Source of the DNA: Oceanococcus sp. HetDA_MAG_MS8
GTDB lineage: Bacteria > Pseudomonadota > Gammaproteobacteria > Nevskiales > Oceanococcaceae
Direction of reading: 5' to 3'
Assembly: GCA_019192445.1 (NCBI GenBank)
Contig: JAHCMK010000001.1
Coordinates: forward strand, 558,001 to 622,000
DNA length: 64,000 bases
Shown piece after piece: positions 47,689 through 48,989 of the stretch. Made by a program: the position numbers and the translations under genes. Below the pieces are notes generated by a model. It was not told the DNA's origin, did not search any database, and was given only the letters and a program-made list of their open reading frames with translations. Positions within the stretch are counted from its first letter, which is position 1; the number at the start of each line of letters is the position of its first letter.

Positions 47689-47773
47689 GGGCTCAAGCTT
47701 GTGAAGTGAATCATGAGCCTCCCCTAGATCTATTTTGCTGCGCCGCAGCATTGGCCGTCAAGCTTGAAATCTC

Positions 47774-48010
47774 GCCTCCACATCCGCACACTGTGGTTAT
47801 GGCTGTAATCCCTGAAGCGGGGAGGCTTGTCGGACGCGGGGGCGGTACCCGCCACCTCCACCACTATGGGGGTGAAATAGGCTCGACGGCATGCAAGAAC
47901 GTAACAGGCAGCTCGGTAGGCGACGACCGTAAATCGCGCAAACTCTATAGTTGCCAATGATGACAACTTCGAGGTAGCCCTCGCGGCATAACCTCCGAGG
48001 GCCGTCGCCC
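47774..48010 (+). ncRNA. ssrA: tmRNA, circularly permuted (two-piece) ssrA
   Basis: RNA that rescues stalled ribosomes and adds a degradation tag. The order of parts is permuted. First comes the acceptor piece (about 47790-47863) with the T-stem GCGGG/CCCGC, loop GGCGGTA, CACCTCC, discriminator A and CCA. Four bases (CTAT, 47864-47867) follow. Then comes the coding piece from 47868: GGGGGTG, a D-loop block AGGCTCGACGG, and an H-type pseudoknot (CGGT/ACCG interleaved with GCGA/TCGC, 47914-47937). The tag frame at 47953-47991 codes ANDDNFEVALAA and stop, preceded by ATAGTT. GGGGGTG pairs with CACCTCC over seven base pairs with G3-U70, the AlaRS identity pair. Two helix segments tie the pieces together (47893-47897 with 47826-47830; 47909-47912 with 47802-47805). 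After the tag, GCCCTCG (47977-47983) pairs with CGAGGGC (47996-48002). Outer ends are approximate. Confidence 0.9.
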
Positions 48011-48027
48011 TTGTTACCAAAGACCCT

Positions 48028-48051
48028 GGAAGCCCGCGCAAGCGGGCTTCC
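48028..48051 (+). terminator. Probable ssrA terminator hairpin
   Basis: A perfect 10-bp stem GGAAGCCCGC / GCGGGCTTCC closed by a GCAA tetraloop, about 25 bases after the last recognised tmRNA helix. The following bases (TTGCGATTGGCTTTT) are T-rich but not a clean run. It could alternatively be the 3' part of the coding piece. Confidence 0.6.
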
Positions 48052-48180: not shown

Positions 48181-48445
48181 GTGTCCTGTCTCCGAAGTTC
48201 GTTACATATCAGCGAGTCAGAACGCGGTGTGCCGCTAGGCGCGCTCGCGCAGGAATGGTTGTTCCATTTCAAGCGAGCGCAACACCGCGGAACGCCGCGT
48301 TCTGGCTCGCCCGCAGGGAGCCCCTCAAATCGCCCGCTACCGCGTTGCGCTCCTTGGCAAGGGAATAACCATTCCCGGCGGAGCGCGCCTTGTATCGAAC
48401 GATTTGAGGAGCTCTGATATGCAACGAACTTCAGAGACAGGACAC
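48181..48445. repeat. MITE-like element 2 with 32-bp terminal inverted repeats
   Basis: 265 bases between ssrA and smpB. The left end (48181-48212) and the reverse complement of the right end (48414-48445) match at 30 of 32 positions; both begin GTGTCCTGTCTC and end CATATCAG. A second, inner inverted repeat pairs 48213-48226 with about 48297-48310 (GAGTCAGAACGCGG against CCGCGTTCTGGCTC). No transposase is coded. No clear target duplication was seen. It is unrelated to element 1. Confidence 0.8.
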
Positions 48446-48459
48446 TAACCGGCATCCAC

Positions 48460-48939
48460 TCAATGACGCAGGAGTCGGGCCTTATCTCGGCTCCAATCTC
48501 TTTCTTTGATCGCATCGCGTTTGTCATGGGCTTTTTTGCCGCGTCCCACGCCAAACTGCAGCTTGGCCCGACCATGCGACCAATGCATATCTAGGGGCAC
48601 CAAGGTATAACCTTTGCGCTCGGTCACACCGATGAGCCTGCGAATCTCACGGCTGTGCAGCAACAACTTGCGGGTGCGATTCGGATCGGGCACCACATGC
48701 GTCGAAGCTGTCTTCAGAGCCTGTATTTGCGCCCCGATTAACCATGCTTCCCCTTTTTCGATACGCACATAAGACTCCGCCACGCTCGCCCGACCTTCGC
48801 GCAGCGCTTTGACCTCCCATCCTTCCAGCACAATGCCGGCCTCGAAATCGTCTTCGATTTGATAATCGTGACGGGCCCGACGATTCTGGGCGATGATGCG
48901 GGAATGGGAGCTGGCTTTTTTCTTCTTATTCTTACTCAT
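48460..48939 (-). CDS. smpB: SsrA-binding protein SmpB
   Basis: A 159-residue partner of tmRNA that binds its D-arm and takes the place of the anticodon stem on the ribosome. Blocks: [39 protein letters not shown], the basic [12 protein letters not shown] and the C-terminal tail [19 protein letters not shown] at 48939 begins MSKNKKKK; a GTG at 48954 is possible but adds little. It lies next to ssrA in opposite orientation, separated by MITE element 2. Confidence 0.96.
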
Positions 48940-48989
48940 GAGTGGCGGGTTCACCGCGGGCTAAGGCTGTGCGGAATGTCCATCTGGCC

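Follow-up and report, generated by a model that had tools for sequence, protein, structure and literature searches.

The host genome carries a circularly permuted tmRNA gene, the one tmRNA gene found in the window, by which we mean the whole 64-kb stretch of DNA that was analysed. Analysis with cmscan placed the gene at positions 47801-48051 of the forward strand, where the permuted tmRNA model RF04321 aligned over its full length (model positions 1-213) with 141.4 bits (cut-off 47, E 9e-28) and the betaproteobacterial tmRNA model RF01850 scored 121.1 bits (cut-off 84, E 2.5e-36). ARAGORN called the same gene a tmRNA* with the tag ANDDNFEVALAA, and the three results bear out the permuted tmRNA that the initial annotation had read in this DNA. 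The gene is real and under selection, and it is a property of the host and not a product of misbinning. We are highly confident that it is a working two-piece tmRNA with the function of the known ones; the complete explanation that we favour, a working permuted tmRNA acquired by transfer, we regard as fairly probable. The main clades known to have the permuted form are three, Alphaproteobacteria, some Betaproteobacteria and Cyanobacteria (PMC3968760, PMC11915505), and these lineages are usually viewed as independent inventions (PMC3978253). Leaving aside the taxonomic supplement to the 2025 database article (PMC11915505), we found no published report of a permuted tmRNA in Nevskiales.

Anatomy, constraint and proposed working of the gene

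As first described, the T-arm and encoded CCA (47832-47863) come ahead of the acceptor 5' strand and the tag frame (47868-47991), and all the named parts are present (Table 1): the acceptor stem GGGGGTG/CACCTCC of 7 bp including G3-U70, which is tRNA-Ala-like, the D-loop block ending in TCGACGG, the pseudoknot PK1, the resume codon GCC and the tag. The extent of 47774-48010 given by the initial annotation was right in locating a gene there but not in its limits, as the gene reaches about 48051 and its transcript probably starts near 47798; the 4-nt intervening sequence and the non-canonical T-loop are features beyond that description. The acceptor piece holds the 3' strands of H2 and H5, the T-arm, the acceptor 3' strand and the encoded CCA, and the first part of the coding piece holds the acceptor 5' strand, the D-loop AAATAGGCTCGAC, the 5' strands of H5 and H2, PK1 and the tag frame, which has PK1 ahead of it and ends in a protease signal. 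The tag peptide is identical in the sister species (G001), where the intervening sequence reads CTTT. The mature RNA is expected to lack this intervening sequence.

Table 1. Features of the permuted tmRNA locus (window positions)
Feature	Positions	Strand	Basis or remark
Probable promoter	47764-47792	+	TTGAAA, 17-nt spacer, CACACT; read from sequence
3' (amino acid acceptor) piece	47801-47863	+	RF04321 and RF01850 alignments, T-loop reading, covariation; 5' end approximate
T-arm GGAC-GCGGG-GGCGGTA-CCCGC (loop GGCGGTA)	47832-47852	+	sequence
Acceptor 3' strand CACCTCC	47853-47859	+	sequence
A and encoded CCA	47860-47863	+	sequence
Intervening sequence CTAT	47864-47867	+	between encoded CCA and acceptor-stem G1
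5' (coding) piece, first part	47868-47991	+	RF04321, ARAGORN, segment extraction
Acceptor 5' strand GGGGGTG	47868-47874	+	sequence
PK1	47914-47937	+	stems CGGT/ACCG and GCGA/TCGC; helices 85% of cells paired each
Tag frame ANDDNFEVALAA and TAA	47953-47991	+	ARAGORN; resume codon GCC at 47953
Coding piece, 3' part, RF01850-type, with CCTTGTTACCAAAG	47992-48051	+	RF01850 alignment reaching 48054
Terminal hairpin GGAAGCCCGC-GCAA-GCGGGCTTCC	48028-48051	+	helix 100% paired, three double-sided changes
Small repeated inverted-repeat element, non-coding, outside tmRNA	48181-48445		between tmRNA and smpB; 32-bp terminal inverted repeats, 94% complementary
smpB, protein partner of tmRNA	48460-48954	-	Pfam PF01668, E 4.5e-57; convergent with tmRNA gene

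The promoter layout of the host matches the TTGAAA-17-TATAAT found 5' of betaproteobacterial permuted genes, and the sister species has TACGAT where the host has CACACT. We take the host promoter as putative, because it was read by eye and a consensus promoter scanner left the TTGAAA/CACACT stretch unflagged.

Comparison of the copies pointed to a strong constraint on the RNA structure. The tmRNA gene of the sister species is 91% identical to that of the host over 258 bp, versus 73.5% for smpB DNA, and the flanks of the two tmRNA genes are unalignable save for fragments of coding sequence. In the five Nevskiales copies, which come from two genera, 91% of the cells of a 51-pair structure are paired and 13 base pairs have changed on both sides. 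The covariation score of these five copies (0.337) was reached by none of 500 shuffles, a count that is not to be read as a probability, five sequences in two tight groups being few. The stronger argument is the sliding control, in which the slid versions scored 0.02-0.06, so that the true placement stands at about six times any of them.

We infer the expression, processing and tagging activity of the host RNA. In Caulobacter a two-piece tmRNA is functional, and processing by RNase P and a 3' nuclease has been proposed (PMC3985003). A single transcript would start near 47798 and end past the terminal hairpin, RNase P would cut ahead of G 47868, and 3' nucleases would trim CTAT back to CCA. Pairing in the acceptor stem, H5 and H2 would then keep the acceptor and coding pieces joined, and the two-piece RNA would be charged with alanine via G3-U70, bind SmpB, the product of the neighbouring gene, enter stalled ribosomes and add the degradation tag ANDDNFEVALAA. 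The cut should be required for charging, since only CTAT lies between CCA and G1 and the uncut stem would close upon an 8-nt loop with no free 3' CCA.

Genomic setting, host and distribution of the permuted form

Only one place in the host genome (G000) matches RF01850, and no standard ssrA was found there above the RF00023 cut-off, the best match of 30 bits being a tRNA. Of the two findings that the initial annotation had named as telling against it, a standard ssrA elsewhere in the genome and a host within a beta lineage known for the permuted form, neither turned up. The four other carriers of the permuted form described below likewise have no standard ssrA above that cut-off, and a blastn examination beside smpB for a remnant of ssrA gave nothing beyond the conserved stretches to be expected of the permuted gene, in its T-arm/acceptor region and its tag. 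The gene sits on a contig of 702,689 bases, and the genome has a rated completeness of 100% and a contamination of 0.02%. Genes for 2-oxoacid dehydrogenase E1/E2 flank it to one side and smpB, rnfH, bamE, fur, recN and nadK to the other, and this order is kept in the sister species on a contig of its own. Between tmRNA and smpB lies the inverted-repeat element of Table 1, of which the genome holds about eight near-full copies (89-100% identical) and many pieces, several of them at contig ends.

Permuted tmRNAs in odd taxa have been blamed on misbinning of metagenomes (PMC11915505), which gives an assembly, binning or contamination artefact, or else a dead copy, some footing as an explanation. 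The long contig, the near-zero contamination, the ordinary neighbours, the second species with the same locus, the lack of any other tmRNA and the strong structural constraint all speak against this reading, which we consider extremely improbable.

One member of the host's GTDB order (G056) has smpB at contig positions 41756-42229, in exact agreement with SCVA01000001.1 ('Nevskiaceae bacterium GW715_bin.28'), and Nevskiaceae belong by taxonomy to Nevskiales, Gammaproteobacteria; sharing its order with Nevskiaceae, the host falls in the Nevskiales group of the Gammaproteobacteria. The gammaproteobacterial gene context seen by the initial annotation was correct, the gene order being an ordinary gammaproteobacterial one, and the same kinship places the host outside the alpha- and betaproteobacteria. 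A betaproteobacterial-type example (G701, tag ANDERFALAA) is related to the host at the level of 'same class' only. The possibility that the host is itself a betaproteobacterium was ruled out by genome kinship.

Within the order the permuted form has a patchy distribution: of 85 genomes 5 carry it, and these belong to 2 of the 21 genera. The carriers are the host and its sister species in genus g1, one of the two genera (g1 and g2) of family f1, and three species (G047, G057 and G070) of genus g11 in family f2; the sister genus and other members of g11 have standard tmRNA. Among a subset of 61 genomes of the order, the standard gene is complete and above the RF00023 cut-off in 54, and one genome (G049) has a shortened standard tmRNA. 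SmpB genes were found in 80 of the 85 members. Neither form of tmRNA was detected in two genomes (G003 and G016), and as smpB also went undetected in both, assembly gaps are likely. Of 369 genomes sampled from the class, betaproteobacteria forming an uncounted share of them, only the host gave the permuted form.

Several tmRNA genes outside the five carriers are unusual in their own right. The shortened gene of G049 (L150, 9993-10169; 177 nt, tag ANDANYALAA) is without the stretch from the end of the tag to the T-arm, that is PK2-PK4 and the 3' strand of H2, and represents either a real reduction or an assembly deletion. Another genome (G007) has two standard tmRNA genes (L155, 8313-8643 and L156, 8540-8909), one of them complete and the other, the copy near smpB, breaking off inside the T-arm without the 3' acceptor end, which might be the result of island integration. 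Two genomes from other classes of the phylum (G632 and G717) gave two permuted tmRNA matches each.

Mosaic sequence and phage relatives

The host RNA is a mosaic, beta-like in promoter, H2/H5 and PK1 and alpha-like in the T- and D-loops. The T-loop is GGCRGWA in all 29 alphaproteobacterial genes examined and TTCGAYT in all 20 betaproteobacterial ones. The host has the T-loop GGCGGTA, from which U54 and U55 are both absent, with the D-loop AAATAGGCTCGAC, and the g11 genes have GGCAGTA with ACATAGCTTCGAC; the canonical TTCGAYT T-loop with a GGYTTCGAC D-loop, common to all sampled betaproteobacterial genes, is absent from the host gene. The combination of a GGCRGTA T-loop and a UAG-type D-loop is shared by the sampled alphaproteobacterial genes and many phage genes, and by no standard or betaproteobacterial gene of the sample.

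Identity to the alphaproteobacterial permuted genes (RF01849) is 0.90 in the T-arm and 0.87 in the D-loop. Features shared with them are the GGCRGTA T-loop with a AAAYAGGMTCGAC D-loop, seen in nearly all those sampled, the CCA that most of them encode, and a longer tag. They differ from the host in H2/H5, PK1 and the 3' region, and their spacers are mostly of 22-47 nt, with 5 and 10 nt in one family. RF01849 was not the lineage model reported for the host gene, RF01850 being reported instead; it was the reported model only for the g11 genes (67-75 bits).

The betaproteobacterial permuted genes (RF01850), which provide the best lineage-specific Rfam match of the host gene, share with it the promoter layout, a GCATGGYTGTAATCCC-like start, the GGCGACG loop of PK1 and the CCTTGTTACC 3' region. 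Identity to them ranges between 0.55 and 0.61 in H2, H2/H5 and PK1; the 3' strand of H2 is 0.59 identical to them and 0.75 to Pseudomonas phage SM1, and PK1 0.61 to them and 0.69 to g11. Nonetheless, the sampled betaproteobacterial genes score 132-331 bits on RF01850 versus 121.1 for the host, have TTCGAYT T-loops and spacers of 24-42 nt, usually do not encode CCA and carry tags such as ANDERFALAA. The standard tmRNA of the same order (RF00023) has the G3-U70 acceptor stem, a tag starting with ANDDN, the SmpB partner and a locus beside smpB in common with the host gene, and differs from it in gene order, number of pseudoknots and T-loop, with near-zero identity in H2 and PK1; relative to the standard RNA of the sister genus (G002) the host values are 0.15 in H2, 0.41 in H2/H5 and 0.36 in PK1.

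Genes with a GGCRGTA T-loop mostly have A at the D-loop position that is G in genes with a TTC-type T-loop, an A/G swap that likely represents a tertiary covariation across bacteria and phages. E. coli tmRNA carries m5U and pseudouridine in its T-loop (PMC3968760); owing to a T-loop without U54 and U55, the host RNA is predicted to lack m5U54 and pseudouridine 55.

The intervening sequence, of 4 nt in the host and 5 nt in g11, has its counterparts in phages, and marine phages with two-piece tmRNA have been published (PMC9004378). Examination of phage and plasmid records by blastn for close copies gave partial matches only, which led to two phages with permuted tmRNA: Stenotrophomonas phage BUCTxx99 (L267), with the 4-nt spacer CTAC and a related tag, ANDDVYVVALAA, and Pseudomonas phage SM1 (L181; tag ANDTSFDVRLAA), whose likeness to the host lies in the 75% identity of the H2 3' strand. 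Both differ from the host in having TTC-type T-loops. A scan of viral sequences for spacers of 2-8 nt yielded at least 100 candidate permuted genes passing the stem checks, and because that range was selected by the scan itself, it speaks for the existence of short spacers and not for their frequency; an earlier viral scan by T-arm alone had given mostly long spacers. Nor are short spacers confined to phages, as 5 and 10 nt also occur in some alphaproteobacteria. Among the viral candidates listed there are the spacers CTAT, CTAC, TCTAC and TCGAC, T-loops of both types and a host-like PK1, and many permuted genes of IMG/VR contigs combine 4-5 nt spacers with a GGCAGTA or GGCGGTA T-loop and a PK1 of the GGCGAC...GCGCAAA type. 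Tags related to that of the host are likewise found on many viral contigs. None of the viral copies found unites the alpha-type T-loop, the beta-type PK1 and the host tag, the exact PK1 pattern of g1 and g11 was not found in viral sequences, and looser PK1 patterns gave mostly chance matches or beta-type phage genes. No donor above about 70% core identity was found.

The permuted tmRNA genes of phages SM1 and BUCTxx99, and that of Mesorhizobium phage Cp1R7A-A1 (L182), are unannotated in their records. Permuted tmRNAs are also borne by the Pandoraea plasmid pPO70-1 (L183), with the odd tag reading GKNDAFYYEAA, and by the Bosea plasmid pBSY19_1 (L184; tag VNDNNAGYALAA).

Origin of the gene and what it may mean

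In the sister genus and most relatives checked, the standard ssrA lies close downstream of smpB and codirectional with it. The permuted gene of the host occupies this ancestral slot but is inverted, pointing towards smpB; in g11 it is far from smpB, and no tmRNA was detected beside smpB in any of the three g11 genomes. Being inverted in g1 and relocated in g11, the gene is better explained by insertion and loss of the old gene than by duplication and deletion in place. In G070 an integrase-like frame (L148, 5013-6290) was read by eye at a distance of about 3.7 kb from the permuted gene; it had no Pfam match at E 0.001.

The initial annotation had offered three ways to account for the gene: a further origin, a transfer or an unexpected place of the host in the phylogeny. 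Transfer is favoured among these by the locus, the mosaic and the phage relatives, and an unexpected position of the host is not needed. To the inverted position by smpB, the other locus in g11, the patchy distribution and the mosaic sequence are added the poor match to the standard tmRNA of the sister genus and the phage relatives with an equally short spacer. We hold it moderately likely, on these comparisons, that the gene came by horizontal transfer from the phage and proteobacterial pool of permuted tmRNAs and replaced the standard ssrA, with phages as a plausible route.

Could the host's own ssrA have been permuted where it stood, by tandem duplication and loss of the outer halves, the course proposed for other permuted tmRNAs, with the T- and D-loops and the PK region convergent? 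The gene does fill the intergenic slot of the relatives' standard ssrA, published work regards the known lineages as having arisen independently (PMC3978253), and the AU tests, as detailed below, did not reject a clade with the order's standard genes. Nevertheless it is inverted with respect to the ancestral ssrA, its mRNA-like half is far closer to betaproteobacterial and phage permuted genes than to the standard gene of the sister genus, and its GGCRGTA T-loop and UAG-type D-loop recur in alphaproteobacteria and phages, and in none of the standard or betaproteobacterial genes sampled. We therefore deem permutation in place unlikely.

Phylogenetic trees of the RNA, built on about 185 columns, singled out no single donor. 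Of the three trees, one included a mis-cut row of 2306 bases, which the later tree leaves out. Every tree keeps the order's standard genes together, the alphaproteobacterial genes cohere in the tree without viral rows, and in the free trees the two Nevskiales permuted groups lie apart from the standard clade. By path, g1 and g11 are nearest relatives; a clade of the two had an AU p of 0.14 in the first tree and was recovered as one group in one of the three trees, the later one, with a support of 92/97. The union of g1 with the betaproteobacterial genes varied with sampling (AU p 0.022 in the first tree, 0.21 in the later one), that of g1 with the alphaproteobacterial genes gave 0.30, and that of g1 with the standard genes 0.06 and later 0.64. 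A clade joining the Nevskiales permuted genes to the order's standard genes had p values of 0.29 and later 0.75, the latter with a higher likelihood.

The mutual nearness of the two Nevskiales groups, united at 92/97 in one tree, and the beta-like body of the RNA are what one would expect of vertical inheritance if the ancestor of the order, or one that it shares with the betaproteobacteria, already had the permuted gene and other lineages went back to the standard form repeatedly. With just five carriers among the 85 genomes, confined to two of the 21 genera, standard genes in the sister genus and in other members of g11, and genomic positions that differ between g1 and g11, such inheritance is unparsimonious and we think it very unlikely.

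Carrying the transfer reading further, we tentatively propose, with less confidence than in transfer itself, that two or more lineages of a single gammaproteobacterial order may have had their standard ssrA displaced by a phage-type permuted tmRNA, and that a virus-derived two-piece RNA, with a T-loop lacking U54 and U55, might now be running ribosome rescue in these cells. A gammaproteobacterial case with a beta-like body, alpha-like loops and phage relatives makes the spread of permuted tmRNA via phage transfer and recombination testable. Moreover, genera g1 and g2, belonging to one family, provide a natural pair of two-piece and one-piece tmRNA in similar cells.
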